From the NCBI GenBank assembly GCA_005809105.1, contig SYLI01000097.1, forward strand, positions 1 through 35,472: DNA of 35,472 nucleotides. Direction: 5' to 3'. The stretch's first letter is position 1. Each line of letters starts with the position of its first letter. Shown here one piece after another: positions 15,971 to 23,029 of the stretch. The translations under genes and the position numbers were made by a program. Under the pieces are notes generated by a model. It had not been told where the DNA came from, did no database searches, and worked only from the letters and a program-made list of their open reading frames with translations. The stretch comes from Verrucomicrobiales bacterium. GTDB taxonomy: Bacteria; Verrucomicrobiota; Verrucomicrobiia; Limisphaerales; UBA1100.

Positions 15971-16609
15971 CTAGTTGTTTGGCCGTGGCGGCGCAGGGTC
16001 TGGCGTGGTGCGGGGCGCGGACCCGGCCAGAGACTGCGGCGTGCTCTCGTAGATGCGAAACTGCTCTGCGCGTCGTTTGCCTTCGGCCACCAAATCCGGC
16101 GTGAGCAACAACGCCAGCTGGTCGCGCGCCTCGATGTGAACCGGCTGGCCCTTCTCGGCGGCCAGATGCAGCCACTTGTACGCTTCCACGATATTCTTGG
16201 AGACGCCGCTGCCTTCCTTGCAGGCCAGTCCCATCAGGTATTGGCCGTTGGGATTGTCCTGCCGCGCGGATTTGAGGTACCACTTGGCAGCCTCCAGATA
16301 GTTCATGGGCACGCCGTACCCATTTTGAGCGCAGACACCGAGCGCGAACTGCGCCTCCGCATGGCCCTGCTCGGCGGCTTGCTTGAAGAGTGCGGCGGCA
16401 CGCTCGTGGTGGATGGGCAATCCATCGCCCAGATAGTATTTGTAGCCCAGCTCCAGCTGGCCTTCGGCGGTCTTGGGATGCAAATCAAGAGTGGATGGCG
16501 CCTTGCCCTGAGGTTTGGCATCCGGCCCGCCGCAGCCCGCCGCGATGAACGCAGCCGCGATCCACAGCGCGTGACACAGCCGGACGATTGCTTGTGAAAA
16601 CCTCCTCAT
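15971..16609 (-). CDS. Sel1-repeat putative lipoprotein
   Basis: The ATG at 16609 gives 212 residues. It is fixed by a strong AAGGAGG ribosome site (complement of 16616-16622), six bases from the start. The N-terminus is a signal sequence ending in FIAAGCGG, so Cys26 may be lipidated, although Ala at -3 is not the best lipobox. Residues about 47-160 hold three Sel1 (TPR-like) repeats of the A-x-x-x-L-G-x-x-Y-x-x-G-x-G form, ending in a degenerate fourth. The tail is Pro-rich. Sel1 solenoids usually scaffold protein contacts. It follows the Sel1-protease gene by 61 bases on the same strand and is probably cotranscribed or a partial duplicate of its repeat region. Confidence 0.85.
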   Translation of the reverse strand: MRRFSQAIVRLCHALWIAAAFIAAGCGGPDAKPQGKAPSTLDLHPKTAEGQLELGYKYYLGDGLPIHHERAAALFKQAAEQGHAEAQFALGVCAQNGYGVPMNYLEAAKWYLKSARQDNPNGQYLMGLACKEGSGVSKNIVEAYKWLHLAAEKGQPVHIEARDQLALLLTPDLVAEGKRRAEQFRIYESTPQSLAGSAPRTTPDPAPPRPNN

Positions 16610-16615
16610 GAACTG

Positions 16616-16622
16616 CCTCCTT
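16616..16622 (-). promoter_or_regulatory. Strong Shine-Dalgarno site of the Sel1 lipoprotein gene
   Basis: CCTCCTT on the plus strand is AAGGAGG on the coding strand, six bases before the ATG at 16609. It decides the start against the longer open frame reaching 16780. It is one of the few strong sites in this window. Confidence 0.8.
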
Positions 16623-16670
16623 CGACTGTCAGGAAGGATAGTCGGAGACGCTCCAGAGTCAATCCGGCAG

Positions 16671-18257
16671 TCATCGGTGGGCGCGAATGCGCACGGCGGC
16701 GGCCTGTGCCGCGGCGATGATCTCCTGCTTGGTAAGTTCGCTCTCCGAGGGCACCGCCAGTTTGCCAGCCAGCGCCGCATGGCCGCGCAGAAAGTGGAAG
16801 ATCACATCGCTCTTGAGCGCGTAATTGACCTGCTGCGGCAGCGAGCCGGACCGCTGGAACGACTTCATCGGATTGAGCGCGCACTGGACCATGCCGATGA
16901 CGCGGCCACCTTCATCCACCAGTGCGCCCCCCGAATTCCCCGGCTGCACGGCCGCGTCCAGTTGAAAATGGCGCGGCTCATCCTGCGCGCCGGCCAGACC
17001 GTTGATGGTTCCTGCCGAGTACTTGGGCTCGACACCTTGGAGGGTCGTGTTGGGAAAGCCGATGGTGAACACCGCGTGGCCCAGTCGCCCGCCCGCGCTG
17101 CTCACCAAAGGCAGCGCCTTGTGCGTGCCTTCCACCTTGAGCAGCGCGATGTCATTGGGAATATCCGAGGCCAGCAGCTTTGCTTCGAGCAAGCCGGCGG
17201 CCGTGGCCACTTCGATGCGGCGCGCGCCGGCCACCACATGCTGGCAGGTGAGCACATGGCCATCGGTGGTGATTAAAAATCCCGAGCCGCCGCTTAGCTC
17301 CAAAGCGGCAGAAGCAAGCACGTCCGGGGCGGTCGTGGCCGCTTTGAGTTCGGGCGTGCTGAGGGCCGGGGCCGTGGCGGCCGTGCCTGAGGTGCGGGCC
17401 GATTGTCGGGCGGCAAACAAGGCCGCCAGCCGCTGCGCCTCGCCGTGCTGCTGGGGCGTGAGCTTGTCCTCGATGGTTTGCAGATGCTCCCCCGCCGCGG
17501 CATGGCCCGCGCCGGCAGCCAGGTTCATCCACTTGTGCGCCTGCACAAAATCCTGCGGCACGCCTTCGCCAAAGAAGTGGTGCGTGGCCACAAGGAATTG
17601 CGCAGGCACCCATCCCTGATCGGCGGCGGCGTGGTGCCAGCGCGCGCCTTCGGTCAGGTCTTTGTCCACTCCACGCCCCTCGAAGTAGGCCGTTCCCAGA
17701 TGGCATTGTGCCGGGGCAAAGCCCTGTTTGGCGGCGCGACGGTACCAGTAGATGGCTTCGGCTGGATTGGGCACGACGCCGGTGCCCGATTCCAACGCCG
17801 CGGCCAGGTTAGTTTGGGCCGCGGCGTGATCCTGTCGGGCGGCCTTGAGATACCACTCAACGGCAAGGGCAGGGTCGCGCTTCACGCCCTGGCCTCGGGC
17901 ATGAAGAACCGCGAGTCCGTGCTGCGCGATGGCGTCGCCCTGATCGGCGGCGCGGTGAAGCCAATGGGCGGCCTGCGTGAAGTCCACATTCACGCCTTGC
18001 CCGCTGTAATAGCAAAGCCCGAGCATGCCCTGCGCGCGAGCGTGGCCGCTCTCTGCGGCGCGGGAAAACCAAGTCACGGCTTCGGCTGGCGACTTGAGGC
18101 CTTGCGAGCCGACAAAAAACCCCATCCCAGCGCGGTATTGGACTTCCGAAACGGGCTCCGCAGGCGGTGCTGCGCAAAGGCAGAGGGCGGGGATGATCGC
18201 GGCCATCCCCATCAAGGCACGGCCAGCGCGCAACCCAATCCCGCGAAAACCCTCCAT
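16671..18257 (-). CDS. Exported Sel1-repeat protein with trypsin-like serine protease domain
   Basis: The ATG at 18257 gives 528 residues with a signal peptide (about 1-30, hydrophobic core MGMAAIIPALCLCA); a GTG at 18302 would add fifteen. Residues about 36-260 form six Sel1 repeats. A Thr/Ala-rich linker (283-318) leads to an HtrA-type S1C protease domain (about 320-492) with the full triad: His340 (LTCQHVV), Asp369 (PNDIALLKV) and Ser442 (QPGNSGGAL). No PDZ domain follows, unlike DegP; the Sel1 solenoid probably takes over substrate or partner binding. It likely acts in the periplasm or outside the cell. It is the first gene of the Sel1 pair and diverges from the Tat-leader isomerase. Confidence 0.9.
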   Translation of the reverse strand: MEGFRGIGLRAGRALMGMAAIIPALCLCAAPPAEPVSEVQYRAGMGFFVGSQGLKSPAEAVTWFSRAAESGHARAQGMLGLCYYSGQGVNVDFTQAAHWLHRAADQGDAIAQHGLAVLHARGQGVKRDPALAVEWYLKAARQDHAAAQTNLAAALESGTGVVPNPAEAIYWYRRAAKQGFAPAQCHLGTAYFEGRGVDKDLTEGARWHHAAADQGWVPAQFLVATHHFFGEGVPQDFVQAHKWMNLAAGAGHAAAGEHLQTIEDKLTPQQHGEAQRLAALFAARQSARTSGTAATAPALSTPELKAATTAPDVLASAALELSGGSGFLITTDGHVLTCQHVVAGARRIEVATAAGLLEAKLLASDIPNDIALLKVEGTHKALPLVSSAGGRLGHAVFTIGFPNTTLQGVEPKYSAGTINGLAGAQDEPRHFQLDAAVQPGNSGGALVDEGGRVIGMVQCALNPMKSFQRSGSLPQQVNYALKSDVIFHFLRGHAALAGKLAVPSESELTKQEIIAAAQAAAVRIRAHR

Positions 18258-18305
18258 CGAAGCGAACGCTATCCGGGCTCGCGCCGGCACGACAAGGCAC
18301 ACTTA

Positions 18306-18334: not shown

Positions 18335-18415
18335 ATGGCGGCCGCATTTCCTAAATGACTTGCCCGCGGGGCGCATTTTGGGAACGTGGGTGGTTCCCAG
18401 AACTCTTTGGATGTC

Positions 18416-19441
18416 ATGAACGCACCGCAAGCCCCTTCGCCCGAGCCCTCCGGATTTAGCCGTCGAGCCGCCATCAGTTCGGCGTTGGCCGCCGCAGGGG
18501 GGGCAGCGGCATTTGGAAGCAGCGCCTTGGGGGCGCCCAAGGCCGCACCGGATCTGCGCCGCGCGGCGACCAAGCGATACGTGATGAAGAAGTCCATCAA
18601 CCTCTGGGCGTTTCCGTATCCGGATCGGATGAATCTGGAGGAGTGCCTCAAGCTGGCGAAAGACGCGGGCTTTGATGGCATTGAACTCAACTACGATTTG
18701 GAGAACGACCTCTCACCGCGCCACGGCACGGCTGAGTTCACGGCCATCCGCAAGATGGCGGATAAAATTGGCATCGCCATCAGCGGTGTTTGTTCATTCC
18801 TCTTCTGGCCCTATCCCTTGACGAGCAACAAGGAGGCCGAGCGCGCGCGCGGGCTGGAGCTGGCCGAGCGGATGACGCGGTGCGCGCACGATCTGGGCAC
18901 GGAAAACCTGCTGGTGGTGCCCGGTGCCGTCCACATGCCCTGGCGCGCGGATCATGAGCCCACACCCAATGACGTGTGTGACCGGCGTGCGCGTGAGGCC
19001 GTGCGCCGACTGCTGCCGGTGGCCGAGAAGCTCAAGGTGCGGCTCAACATGGAAAACATCTTCTTCAACGGCTTCCTCATGACCCCGCAGGAAATGGTGT
19101 CCTTTGTGGACAGCTTCCAGAGCGAGTTCGTCCGCGTGCATTTCGACACCGGCAACATCATGCTCTTTCAGTTTCCCGAGCACTGGATCCCCATCCTCGG
19201 TCGGCGCATCCAGAACGTGCACCTCAAGGAGTTCACCAAGAAGGGGAGCGATCACTCGCTCGAATCCTTCCGGCCCTTGCTCGACGGCACCACGAACTGG
19301 CCGGCGGTGATGGAGGCGTTTGCGCAGGCCGGCTACAACGGCTACCTGACCTTCGAGTACTTCCACCCCTACGCGCACTACCCGGAGGCGCTCATCCACC
19401 AAACCAGCGACTCGCTCGACCGCATGCTCGGCCGCAAGTGA
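18416..19441 (+). CDS. Tat-leader sugar phosphate isomerase/epimerase-like TIM-barrel protein
   Basis: The ATG at 18416 (341 residues) puts FSRRAAISSALAAAGGAAAF at 14-33, a twin-arginine signal. The frame is open from a GTG at 18386. The rest is an AP-endonuclease-2/xylose-isomerase-type barrel: LAKDAGFDGIELNYD, then the likely metal ligands Glu213 (NMENIF), Asp244 (HFDTGN), His269 (NVHLKEF) and Glu314 (FEYF). Family members interconvert keto and aldo sugars or hydroxypyruvate-type acids. In Planctomycetes and Verrucomicrobia, Tat-leader copies are common, and their substrates are mostly unknown. It may work with the other Tat-exported sugar enzymes at 3495-5882, but nothing in the sequence ties them together directly. 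Confidence 0.88.
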   Translation: MNAPQAPSPEPSGFSRRAAISSALAAAGGAAAFGSSALGAPKAAPDLRRAATKRYVMKKSINLWAFPYPDRMNLEECLKLAKDAGFDGIELNYDLENDLSPRHGTAEFTAIRKMADKIGIAISGVCSFLFWPYPLTSNKEAERARGLELAERMTRCAHDLGTENLLVVPGAVHMPWRADHEPTPNDVCDRRAREAVRRLLPVAEKLKVRLNMENIFFNGFLMTPQEMVSFVDSFQSEFVRVHFDTGNIMLFQFPEHWIPILGRRIQNVHLKEFTKKGSDHSLESFRPLLDGTTNWPAVMEAFAQAGYNGYLTFEYFHPYAHYPEALIHQTSDSLDRMLGRK

Positions 19442-19450
19442 ACGGCGTGC

Positions 19451-20782
19451 TCAGTCTGCCGGAGGCCGGGCCACGCGATGGAGACGTTGGAGAAACCCGA
19501 TGAAGGCGCGCCCCGCCACCGCCACCGCCAACACCGCCACCGCCATGCCCAGATCCCTGCCCGGATCCCCTGAGGCGATGGGCATGTAATTGAAGAGCGG
19601 CAGCTGGAGCAGCGGCTGATTGATCCACCCCCGGCCCCATTCGTGGTAGTTCAGGAATTCGCCAACATAAATCTGCGCGACAAACCCCAGCCAGACAGAG
19701 ATCAGGATGACCGCCGTGACCAGCCGGCCCGCGCGGGAGAGTGCCCAGGCGACCAGTCGGGCAAACCAGTGGCGTTGCGGCGCGGGTGCGCTGCGCAGCA
19801 TTTGCAGACGGCCGAGCACTTCACGCTCCACGGCACTGAGTTCGTCCACGCTCAACCTCTGCTCCTGATGCAGTGCCACGATTCCGCCCGCGTAAATCCG
19901 GGCCGCCCAGACGCGCAGCATCACGAACAAGGGGAAGCCAGCCGCCGCCATGGCCCAGTAGTAGTTGCGGAGGTACTGATAGGCGGCCGCCTCCGTTGGA
20001 AAATCCAACCCGCTTTCGCGGTTGGACAAGTACATGGGCGCCACCTTGAGCGCATGGAAGGGCAGGGCGCAGACGGCGCAGGCCATGGCCAGTCCGATGC
20101 AGCGCACCCTTTGGCGCCGCACGATGCGCCAGACGAGGTCAAAATCAAAGAACGCCCTCCATTGCCCGCTGACCGATTGCCGCGCCTGCGCCATGGGAAC
20201 GTAAAACATCGCCGCGACAAACAGGACGATGCCGATGCCTGAGAGTCCCAGCCCGATGGCGAACTGCTCGTAGCTCTTGTAGTAGGAGATGTTCCAGCCG
20301 TAATCCCAGCCGAACCACCACAATAAACCCGGGGGCGCCAGCAGGAGGGAGGTGCAGAGCACGGCTTGCAGGCCCAGCCAGAAGTTTGACCGCACCGAGG
20401 TGACCAGCGCGCCGGCGCGATCCCATCCTTGCGGCGCGGGGGCGGTCTTCGCGCGTGTGTGGCGGAAAAACCAATTGGGCCAGTGTGCGTGACCGGCGAG
20501 CTCGCCGGCCTCTTGGACAAATCCCTCAAAGGGCTGGTGCGACAGGGGGCTGCGCTGCCACCAGTGCCTGAGTGCCGCGCGCTGTGCGGCACGTTGGGCC
20601 CAGCCGGCAACGAGGATGGCTCCCACGATGCTCTGGCAAAAGAAGACTCCCCAGAAGAATTTGACTGCACCTATGGCGAAGTGACGCAGCTGGGCCCATC
20701 CGTGGTTTTGGGGAATTCCGTGGGAGGGCAACGCGGCCGCACCGGCATGGGTTCCCGGAGAAGAGGCACCGGGCGTACTCAT
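19451..20782 (-). CDS. Multi-pass membrane protein of unknown function
   Basis: The protein has 443 residues and I do not recognise the family. About seven hydrophobic segments can be seen at roughly 35-60, 135-157, 174-198, 228-247, 277-303, 353-373 and 411-431. A Trp/His-rich loop lies between the first two, and a cytoplasmic-looking helical stretch (305-345) holds LSVDELSAVEREVLGRL. The N-terminal 30 residues are Gly/Ala/Pro-rich. Its ATG overlaps the stop of the alkaline-phosphatase-fold gene (ATGA at 20779-20782), so translation is probably coupled and the two products may act together at the membrane. It ends 9 bases from the convergent isomerase gene. Confidence 0.75.
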   Translation of the reverse strand: MSTPGASSPGTHAGAAALPSHGIPQNHGWAQLRHFAIGAVKFFWGVFFCQSIVGAILVAGWAQRAAQRAALRHWWQRSPLSHQPFEGFVQEAGELAGHAHWPNWFFRHTRAKTAPAPQGWDRAGALVTSVRSNFWLGLQAVLCTSLLLAPPGLLWWFGWDYGWNISYYKSYEQFAIGLGLSGIGIVLFVAAMFYVPMAQARQSVSGQWRAFFDFDLVWRIVRRQRVRCIGLAMACAVCALPFHALKVAPMYLSNRESGLDFPTEAAAYQYLRNYYWAMAAAGFPLFVMLRVWAARIYAGGIVALHQEQRLSVDELSAVEREVLGRLQMLRSAPAPQRHWFARLVAWALSRAGRLVTAVILISVWLGFVAQIYVGEFLNYHEWGRGWINQPLLQLPLFNYMPIASGDPGRDLGMAVAVLAVAVAGRAFIGFLQRLHRVARPPAD

Positions 20783-21984
20783 GCCAGTGCCGCTTCCAGC
20801 ACGGGTCCCTCGGTGTGCGGGGTCTTGAAGCCCATGAGTTGGCCAATCGTGGCGGCGACTTGAATCTGGTGCACGGGCTTGTCCACGCGGGTGCCCTTGG
20901 GCACGCCGGGCCCAAAAAGGAGCGCGAAGATTTCACGCGAGGAGCGGGAGTTGAAATGGTGCTGGAAGGGCACGTCGGCCAGCGGATTGTTGTCGCGGCC
21001 GCAGTCAGGAACGATGCAGAAGACCGTGTTGCCGCGGTAAAACTCGTCATGATCGACAAATTGGACAAGCTGGCGGATGCCTCGATCCATGATGCGGATG
21101 GCATCGGTGTAATGGCTGCGCACACCCCAGTGGACGTAATCGCAGTCAGTGTAGTTGATCATCATCAGGCGCGGGCGCAGGTGCTGCATGGCGCGCAGCG
21201 ACAGGTCGGTCAGCAGCTGGTCGCCGCGCTCGTTCACAAAGCCGCCATCACCATAGTAGGCACGCCAGCCATTCCAAAAATCCCGGATGGCCGGCCCCTG
21301 GCGGTCGGCGTTCTTCTGCTCTTGGTTCAGGCTTTTCTCCAAGTCGCGCATCAGCTTGGCCACCCGGCGGCGCTCGGCCTCGGGGAGTTTGGGATCCTTG
21401 AGCTGTTGGGAGTAGAGGTGCAGCTTGAACCGGAAGAGGCTCAAGGTCTCCGCCTTGTAGTCCACCCCGAAGTGAATGTGGTTGCTGAAGGTGAAGTACT
21501 CCTCCTGCGGCCGGTTTTCGTTGTTGATGATGAGCGTCTGTTCCGGCGGCACGTCGAAGGCGCTGCGGAAGTACTCGAAGAGCGTGGGCACCTTGAGTTC
21601 GAAATTCTCACTCAAGAACTTGCCGTCGCGGTCGCGAAACTTCTCGTACTTTCCGAGCAGCAGATAGAGCGTGCCCTGCGCGTGGCTCGTGTCCACGTTG
21701 AGCTTGGAATCAAGCTTCTCGCCGGACCTCGCCTTGAACTCCACCAGATCCACGATCATGTTCCCAAAGAGCGTGCCACGCGGCGCGAGCTCCTGGGTGA
21801 GATGGCGCGCGTAGCTGTGCTGCGGGTCAATGCTCTCGCGGCGTCGCGCTCCGCCCCCAAACCGGATGAGGATGACATTGGGGCCGCGATAGGTGGGCTT
21901 CGTGGCGGGCTGCGCCCAAAGTGGCCCGGCGACGGCCGTGCCTGCAGCCAAGCCCTGGAGAAAGTGGCGCCTGTGGGTCTTCAT
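20779..21984 (-). CDS. Tat-leader alkaline-phosphatase/sulfatase-fold protein
   Basis: The protein has 401 residues. It starts THRRHFLQGLAAGTAVAG, a Tat signal, then PNVILIRFGGGARRRESID (35-53), where AlkP-superfamily enzymes carry their first metal ligand and nucleophile. The usual Asp after the first strand is replaced here by Arg-Phe-Gly-Gly-Gly. Downstream MINYTDCDYVHWG and CIVPDCGRDNNPL resemble the D-x-D...H and D-H-G-R metal motifs, the second altered to D-C-G-R. A sulfatase C/S-x-P-x-R motif is absent. The fold is therefore likely, while activity is doubtful or unusual. It follows the cupin gene by 56 bases and overlaps the membrane-protein gene by 4. Confidence 0.72.
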   Translation of the reverse strand: MKTHRRHFLQGLAAGTAVAGPLWAQPATKPTYRGPNVILIRFGGGARRRESIDPQHSYARHLTQELAPRGTLFGNMIVDLVEFKARSGEKLDSKLNVDTSHAQGTLYLLLGKYEKFRDRDGKFLSENFELKVPTLFEYFRSAFDVPPEQTLIINNENRPQEEYFTFSNHIHFGVDYKAETLSLFRFKLHLYSQQLKDPKLPEAERRRVAKLMRDLEKSLNQEQKNADRQGPAIRDFWNGWRAYYGDGGFVNERGDQLLTDLSLRAMQHLRPRLMMINYTDCDYVHWGVRSHYTDAIRIMDRGIRQLVQFVDHDEFYRGNTVFCIVPDCGRDNNPLADVPFQHHFNSRSSREIFALLFGPGVPKGTRVDKPVHQIQVAATIGQLMGFKTPHTEGPVLEAALA

Positions 21985-22015
21985 GCGGGCATCGGCAACG
22001 AATTAGACAAACGCG

Positions 22016-22041
22016 GGGAGGGCCCGGTTACACCCCCTCCC
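22016..22041 (-). other. GC-rich hairpin between cupin and AlkP-fold genes
   Basis: GGGAGGG (22016-22022) and CCCTCCC (22035-22041) can form a 7-bp stem beginning at the cupin stop codon. The following coding-strand bases have only a broken T run, so it is a weak terminator or attenuator at best. Confidence 0.25.
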
Positions 22042-22370
22042 TAATCCAAAGTCAGCGGCCCGTCAAAATGCGTGAGGCTGATCACATCGGTTCTGGCATG
22101 ATGCGGGCCGTGGCGCTCACCCTTGGGCGCGAAGAAAAAAGTCCCCGGCCCGTGGTTCACCTCCCCTTCCTCCCACTGGCCGGAGATGACGTACGCCGAT
22201 TCATTGGCAAGGCGGTGGGTGTGGGCGGGCACGGTCGTGCCGGCGCGAAACTTGCGCAGCACCGTTATGGCCCCGGTGGCATCATCCTTGCGCAGGATGA
22301 GCAGCTCCACGCCTTCGTAGGGACCAGGCAGCCATGCGCCTTGCCGGGCGTCGGCAATGTAGGGAAACAT
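22041..22370 (-). CDS. Small cupin-domain protein
   Basis: The ATG at 22370 gives 109 residues, preceded by AGGAG three bases upstream of the start; longer frames to 22448 lack such a site and run into miaE. The single-domain cupin (about 18-100) has the first metal motif as HTH at 50-52 with Glu57, and later histidines at 87, 90 and 91 (ERHGPHHAR). Such short cupins resemble the ChrR/anti-sigma C-terminal type or small dioxygenase-like proteins, binding a metal through these histidines. It could bind or modify a small molecule; no specific role can be given. It is the first gene of the minus-strand unit with the AlkP-fold and membrane proteins and diverges from miaE. Confidence 0.82.
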   Translation of the reverse strand: MFPYIADARQGAWLPGPYEGVELLILRKDDATGAITVLRKFRAGTTVPAHTHRLANESAYVISGQWEEGEVNHGPGTFFFAPKGERHGPHHARTDVISLTHFDGPLTLD

Positions 22371-22426: not shown

Positions 22427-23029
22427 GTGGTGGGTGGGGCCCGCACACTCCTGCCCGTGTTGCTGTGGCGCGAACCCATTCCTGCGGGGTGGCTGCCCAA
22501 GGTGATGGCCCACCTGCCTGCCGTGTTGGTGGATCATTGCCATTTGGAACGCAAGGCTGCGGCCATGGCGCTGGGCCTCATGCGTTATCAGGCGCTGGCC
22601 AACGTCACGGACCAACTGGCGGCGATCGCGCGGGAGGAGCTCGACCATTTTAGCATGCTCCTTGGATTGCTGCGGCGCCGTGGCATCCCGCTGGGGCCCC
22701 CTCGATCTAGCCCGTGGATCAGCGGGTTGATGAAGACCATTCGACGGGGCGGCCGCGAGCAAGTGGTGGATCACCTCATTTGCTTTGCCCTCATTGAGGG
22801 CCGAAGTTGCGAGAAATTCCAAATCCTCAGCCATGCGCTGGCGGACACCGAGCCCGAAGTGGCAGCCCTGTATGCTGGCCTAGTGGAATCGGAAGGTAAT
22901 CACTACGCCGACTACTGGCTCATGGCTTGTGCGCTCGATGACGCACAGGCGCACCGCCGCCTTGAAGAGTTTTTGAGCGTGGAAGCTGGGCTCATCCGCC
23001 GCGAACATCCGCTGCCGCTGCTGCATTGA
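22427..23029 (+). CDS. miaE: tRNA-(ms2io6A37) hydroxylase-like diiron protein (MiaE)
   Basis: MiaE hydroxylates the isopentenyl group of ms2i6A37 in tRNA using a diiron centre. From the GTG at 22427 the protein has 200 residues. The ferritin-like four-helix ligands are all there: Glu41 (DHCHLERKAA), Glu71 and His74 (EELDHF), Glu124 (ALIEGRSCEKF), and Glu156 and His159 (SEGNHY). The family phrases DH-x-H-x-E-x-KAA and IEGRSCE-x-F make the call firm. No ATG is available before the first ligand helix; GTG at 22400, 22427, 22430 and 22457 are possible and none has a good ribosome site. MiaE is best known from Gammaproteobacteria and is patchy elsewhere. No miaA or miaB is nearby. Confidence 0.9.
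   Translation: MVGGARTLLPVLLWREPIPAGWLPKVMAHLPAVLVDHCHLERKAAAMALGLMRYQALANVTDQLAAIAREELDHFSMLLGLLRRRGIPLGPPRSSPWISGLMKTIRRGGREQVVDHLICFALIEGRSCEKFQILSHALADTEPEVAALYAGLVESEGNHYADYWLMACALDDAQAHRRLEEFLSVEAGLIRREHPLPLLH

Follow-up and report, generated by a model that had tools for sequence, protein, structure and literature searches.

What joins a protein with an altered enzyme active site to the membrane protein whose gene overlaps its own? The question is raised by a locus on contig SYLI01000097.1 of a Verrucomicrobiales bacterium (assembly GCA_005809105.1; positions 1 to 35,472 of the forward strand, a stretch that we call the window, from a genome, G000, of 3.0 Mb in 106 contigs). Here the gene for a predicted alkaline phosphatase (AlkP) superfamily protein with a twin-arginine translocation (Tat) leader (A; 20779-21984, minus strand, 401 aa) runs into that for a membrane protein that appears to be a divergent DUF4013 relative (M; 19451-20782, minus strand, 443 aa) through an ATGA stop/start overlap at 20779-20782 on the minus strand. 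A starts 56 bases past the end of a cupin gene on the same strand (22041-22370, minus strand, 109 aa; Cupin_7, ChrR-like, Pfam E 2e-15). A sequence-only reading of the window had described A and M as a coupled pair led by the cupin. The window sequence bears out both the overlap, which the gene calls also give, and the 56-base spacing; the span assigned to the pair, 20779-22370, takes in the cupin and A and leaves out M.

Results

A and M occur together

A and M make up a genuine two-gene system. Among 98 relatives of the window genome, at genus to order level, a full or near-full A (E below 1e-120) is present in 14, and M in exactly those 14; the other A matches in this sample are short stretches of different AlkP-type proteins. 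A second sample, the 198 Alphaproteobacterial genomes of the family of genome G483, gives the same picture, with A in 10 and M in the identical 10. No genome in either sample has M without A. Were the two distributions independent, their identity would have a probability below 1e-16 in each sample, a rough figure in which relatedness is ignored.

The pairing extends to gene order. We assembled 27 distinct loci, 14 Verrucomicrobial, 12 Alphaproteobacterial and one from a Hydrogenedentes metagenome-assembled genome (MAG); a contig scan of the genomes had returned 16 loci, three of which duplicated those of G001, G002 and G003 and were counted once. At all 27, A is directly followed by M on the same strand, with an open 4-base (-4) stop/start overlap at 21; genes at the relatives' loci were called by a custom caller that missed some. 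Seven further genomes from the sample of 198 bring the count to 34 of 34 genomes with a near-complete A in which M adjoins it, including one (G517) in which A is frameshifted and M is visible only at its start. The exception to the pairing is G039, where a truncated A remnant (L138:3862-4308, E 4.5e-26) is present and M was not found. Over 24 loci, the pairwise distances among A sequences track those among M sequences (correlation 0.86), as expected from joint inheritance. The sequence-only reading had tied the AlkP-fold protein to the membrane protein as a small system, an idea that rare adjacency in other genomes would have spoken against; the outcome was the opposite, and the constant adjacency and identical distributions support it.

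In 387 genomes of the phylum, with at most four candidates scored per genome among those listed, A or M was found only in the window genome, bar one weak partial match each, in G447 for A and, without A, in G331 for M; the latter is a related DUF4013-like protein of the type called D below. The 22 genomes listed from this sample include 20 of the same class and one of the same order, which leaves the coverage of the window's order thin. One A homologue (L049), compared with a plasmid collection, had no match at E 1e-20. Anti-phage defence was considered as a role and rejected, since the PADLOC defence models gave nothing convincing (one match at E 0.012).

A is a predicted Tat-exported protein of the AlkP fold

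The N-terminus of A, MKTHRRHF, is a Tat-type leader carrying the twin arginine of Tat substrates. It passes the NCBIfam TAT_signal_seq cut-off (20 bits against 16.7) and stays under that of Pfam TAT_signal (19.5 against 22.7); within the signal region (RRHFLQG; 21910-21984, minus strand), R5, R6 and F8 are kept in at least 90% of the 27 homologues. An AlphaFold model built with the 27 sequences has the AlkP fold at a mean predicted local distance difference test score (pLDDT) of 81. With this model Foldseek returned 414 matches at E 0.001 or better, with TM-scores of only 0.4-0.5; the best (E 3e-9) is presumably, from its name, a carrageenan sulfatase, and LtaP is fifth (E 1e-8). VIA-align gave Z 27.4 to a PafA mutant (root-mean-square deviation 3.1, 296 residues aligned) and Z 25.2 to Xac NPP. 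At the profile level, the match of A to NPP/sulfatase-like proteins from the same order has a probability of 98.7 over 301 columns.

Family searches place A at the edge of what is catalogued. The window protein is under the cut-offs of Pfam Sulfatase, Phosphodiest and Metalloenzyme; the last matches 23 of the 27 homologues at E 0.1 or better, and two of the four homologues for which scores were seen narrowly pass it (24.6 and 24.5 against 24.3 bits). A sequence search of solved structures with the single protein found no relative at E 1, and one with the A profile gave five matches, led by iPGM (E 0.08) and an arylsulfatase (E 0.23), the rest evidently due to chance. DUF1501 had seemed a candidate family, given the GG strand-1 motif and Tat export, and was rejected (hhalign probability 12.6, no Pfam match). 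By predicted fold and profile, A belongs to the AlkP superfamily, and its earlier description as a Tat-leader AlkP-fold protein agrees with the leader score and with the model's Z of 27 to PafA.

The active site of A has been rebuilt

Sixty positions are invariant in the 27 A sequences, whose mean pairwise identity is 53%, and they cover every active-site position considered. To interpret these positions we used SPAP, in which D300/H304/H491 are the metal-1 ligands and D49/T89/D345/H346 the metal-2 ligands and nucleophile (PMC3145672). The putative metal-1 set is retained: Asp282-Tyr-Val-His285 (21130-21141, minus strand) aligns to the D-x-x-x-H motif found in relatives, with one residue fewer in A, and one of His342-His343 (20956-20961, minus strand; low model confidence) would by alignment be the third ligand. 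D282, H285 and both histidines are invariant in 27 of 27, an assignment made by sequence alignment.

The second site has fared differently. Strand 1 of A (NVILIRFGGG in the window protein) lacks the usual Asp, as it does in all 27 sequences; Gly43 (21856-21858, minus strand), also invariant and lying beside the DG of relatives in the alignment, takes the place of this metal-2 ligand. His101 (21682-21684, minus strand; invariant 27/27) aligns to the Ser of the relatives' FSYPGY and would occupy the nucleophile position, a placement that follows from spacing: the distance to the (L)TG motif's Gly is ten residues alike in A, its sister clade and NPP-like proteins. Thr99 and Ser100 directly precede it, Thr99 being invariant as well, and either of the two may instead be the nucleophile. 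Finally, Asp327-Cys328-Gly329-Arg330 (20995-21006, minus strand) stands for DHGR in every homologue. G43, H101, D327 and C328 thus keep one of the four canonical residues, and for this reason we do not claim a canonical two-metal AlkP enzyme. Both departures singled out in the sequence-only reading, the missing strand-1 Asp and D-C-G-R for D-H-G-R, are fixed features of the family.

The order of these changes can be approached through a sister clade of two members, G071 and G777 (loci L108 and L140). In a midpoint-rooted tree with long branches flagged, A forms one clade (support 100/98) joined to this sister clade at 100/100. Like A, the sister sequences have GGGxR in strand 1 and a His at the position of H101, but they keep DHGR(E), and M was not seen with them: it was not found in G071, nor by eye in the 4.2 kb around the G777 gene. 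A clade without the strand-1 Asp, with DHGR and without M implies that, as far as two sister sequences show, the Asp was probably lost before the pairing with M, and the His-to-Cys change would have come with it. At both loci the sister-clade gene adjoins, by eye, a different exported-looking protein.

M is probably a divergent DUF4013 relative

The model of M is all helical (pLDDT 86.7). In the window protein, averaged hydropathy picks out seven hydrophobic segments (borders set by hand, two printed neighbours merged), in keeping with the seven helices first proposed; the shorter Alphaproteobacterial homologues stop before the seventh, so that seven helices are not a family-wide trait. A short motif, W163-N-I-S-Y-Y-K-S-Y-E-Q173 (20264-20296, minus strand), corresponds to the family consensus GWxNSFNKGYEQ, with W163, Y171 and E172 invariant in 23 of 23 homologues. 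The positive-inside rule and loop charges suggest that the N-terminus is outside and that the GWxNSFNKGYEQ loop and a loop spanning F376...P395 are periplasmic, on the side where an exported A would be.

M had been described as a protein of no known family, a view that the homologues correct. The window protein reaches 19.1 bits against Pfam DUF4013 (cut-off 26.9), 17 of the 23 homologues match it at E 0.1 or better, and the homologue of G043 is over the cut-off (29.5 against 26.9 bits), suggesting that M is a divergent DUF4013 relative. Foldseek with the M model gave no match at E 0.001 or better, and the best structure match, to an ABC transporter chain (Z 3.4), is at noise level; such an absence excludes no family. 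Pfam and NCBIfam transporter families gave only weak one-member matches.

DUF4013-like proteins also accompany DUF1501

Other DUF4013-like proteins of the same order, which we call D, are homologous to M (probability 97.5, E 8e-12). Eight D loci were compared, one in G331 and seven in the set of 98 relatives, and at seven of the eight D is adjoined by PSCyt2/PSD1 (DUF1549/DUF1553) and DUF1501 genes (L162, L163, L164, L166, L167, L168 and L169); these neighbours were assigned to named families at three loci and by similarity at the rest. DUF1501 presumably belongs to the AlkP clan. The D cluster would thus resemble A-M in setting an AlkP-type gene beside a DUF4013-like membrane protein homologous to M, and it differs in its AlkP-type family, its gene order and its extra PSCyt2/PSD1 protein. 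The two arrangements seem to avoid each other: of the 98 relatives 18 have D, and the 14 carrying A-M are not among them (hypergeometric 0.046), and among 20 genomes of the window's family five have A-M, 11 have D and none both (p 0.008), comparisons that are uncorrected for relatedness and include several incomplete genomes. In G033, where A-M was not found, a cupin of the window's type lies next to D (L164:4932-5264). The window genome itself has 71 DUF1501 matches in its 3.0 Mb, a striking expansion.

The cupin and other neighbours

The cupin is an optional neighbour of A-M. It lies upstream on the strand of A at six of the 14 Verrucomicrobial loci and at none of the 13 others; where it is present, the matched stretches are 37 to 1186 bases apart. 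Two loci are uninformative, L067, where less than 0.4 kb of contig is left upstream, and L062, where A starts at the locus edge. As a general description, a pair led by a cupin is not supported. At L068:7521-8158 (G043), the cupin and A are separated by a small gene pair that by eye resembles a toxin-antitoxin module, with one AbrB-like and one PIN-like member.

Apart from A-M itself, no gene family recurred at a fixed position when neighbours were compared across lineages. Two loose BLAST clusters near A-M, c3 (large proteins) and c4 (ABC-type ATPases), span Verrucomicrobia and Alphaproteobacteria at varying distance and strand, and we take both to be common families. In the window, a TIM-barrel gene converges on M (18386-19441, plus strand; AP_endonuc_2, E 1.6e-43), and a MiaE-like gene, tested as 22463-23029 on the plus strand (E 8e-43), diverges from the cupin gene. 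Farther away, at 15971-18302 on the minus strand, lie open reading frames with Sel1-like repeats, one of them apparently ending, by eye, in a trypsin-like protease domain.

Discussion

The co-occurrence, adjacency, predicted fold, invariant residue changes, Tat-type leader and membrane segments computed here can be joined in one proposal, to which we give a probability of about 0.5: A-M would be a membrane-docked, Tat-exported periplasmic AlkP-type metalloprotein, or enzyme, working on a membrane-associated ester, a two-chain analogue of LtaS, EptA or YejM. A and M would form an obligate two-protein system at the cytoplasmic membrane. A would be exported folded by the Tat route, adopting the AlkP fold, while M would hold A at the membrane, exposing on the periplasmic side a conserved C-terminal loop and the GWxNSFNKGYEQ loop, the most conserved of its short loops. 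In A, the metal-1 set D282, H285 and H342/H343 would be retained, and D327, C328 and H101 would make up a rebuilt second site where canonical AlkP enzymes have Asp/Asp/His and a Ser/Thr nucleophile. The substrate of this putative metalloenzyme could then be a phosphate or sulfate ester, either membrane-associated or lipid-linked, and M would serve as both anchor and substrate-presenting partner, as in LtaS, EptA or YejM but in two chains.

Several points weigh against this proposal. Three of the four canonical metal-2 positions are changed, the nucleophile included, and catalysis may therefore be lost; H101 is put at the nucleophile position by spacing and by an alignment beside a gap. The model of A is weak near the active site, with pLDDT below 50 at residues 93-95 and 331-336 and block means of 52 (91-100), 49 (331-340) and 59 (341-350). 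Genes in an operon may also share a pathway without their products touching, and the contact between A and M is one that we infer. The neighbours of A-M offer no clue to a substrate.

A bolder version, which we hold tentatively and think possible at best, would make A-M an undescribed, obligate two-protein periplasmic metalloenzyme with a His-Asp-Cys second metal site (H101, D327 and C328), catalysing an ester chemistry that known AlkP enzymes do not carry out, its membrane-bound substrate presented by the DUF4013-family partner. DUF4013-like proteins would then be general membrane partners of exported AlkP-fold proteins, reused in the DUF1501/PSCyt2 clusters that would replace A-M in related genomes.

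The chief rival to the docked-enzyme proposal is that A has the AlkP fold but no catalytic activity and works as a sensor or scaffold, binding a metal or a lipid headgroup and controlling the activity or stability of M. The loss of the strand-1 Asp, of a Ser/Thr at the nucleophile position and of the DH His would all fit such a protein, yet the positions that replaced them are invariant in 27 of 27 sequences that are otherwise only 53% identical on average, and the metal-1 ligands are intact; we rate it as unlikely but as a serious contender. YejM can be cited on either side: according to a 2020 paper, this AlkP-like inner-membrane protein had no reported activity until then, and the same paper reports it as an active phosphatase (PMC7576196). 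Less probable still, to our mind, is a nutrient-acquisition unit in which A would scavenge as an ordinary hydrolase and M, acting as a transporter, would import the product. A constant pairing of an exported hydrolase fold with an adjoining membrane protein of seven segments is what such a unit would look like, but the active site of A is not ordinary, the transporter-family matches of M are weak and confined to single members, its structure matches are at noise level, and no catabolic gene set recurs beside A-M as far as the names can be read.

We see little room for a role in metal handling, in which the Cys/His/Asp site of A would deliver zinc or copper, M would receive it, and the cupin would be another metal-linked part. 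H101, D327, C328, D282, H285, H342 and H343 are all potential ligands and all invariant, and the Tat route is often used by proteins that acquire their cofactors before they are exported; against this, the fold of A is that of ester hydrolases, and no recurrent metal-transport or metalloregulator gene was noticed nearby by eye. That the linkage is mere inherited synteny without functional meaning is hard to credit: the window's family does also keep its MiaE-like, TIM-barrel and (by eye) kinase-like neighbours, but A and M stay together in differing surroundings, across several Verrucomicrobial families, the Alphaproteobacteria and a Hydrogenedentes MAG.

The diversification of catalytic sites is a question for which the AlkP superfamily serves as a standard model. 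In the A clade, spread over three phyla, three of four second-site residues have been swapped for invariant others, two of them able to bind metal, which makes this diversification testable by simple mutagenesis. The link of D to DUF1501 and PSCyt2 at seven of eight loci could likewise help to explain DUF1501, so abundant in the window's genome. Among the literature matches listed, no title or abstract opening describes an A-M pair, and in the entries searched DUF4013 turned up in one paper, a cotton genetics study. To our knowledge, the pairing with A is the first functional handle on DUF4013-like membrane proteins.

Among known systems, the NPP-, PafA- and sulfatase-type enzymes, including NPP-like paralogues of the same order, share with A the predicted fold (Z 25-27), the metal-1 motif and the profile, whereas in A the strand-1 Asp, the DH His and the residue where the nucleophile would sit are replaced, and a constant membrane partner is present. 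In LtaS/LtaP, EptA/MCR and YejM, an AlkP-fold domain outside the cytoplasmic membrane is combined with a multi-helix membrane part in one chain. A and M, in contrast, are separate reading frames at 27 loci; A has a Tat-type leader and, by spacing, a His at the nucleophile position, and M is DUF4013-like. Enzymes of the LtaS, EptA and YejM type conserve a catalytic Thr (PMC7576196), and A possesses an invariant Thr, Thr99, two residues before the position where the spacing would place it.

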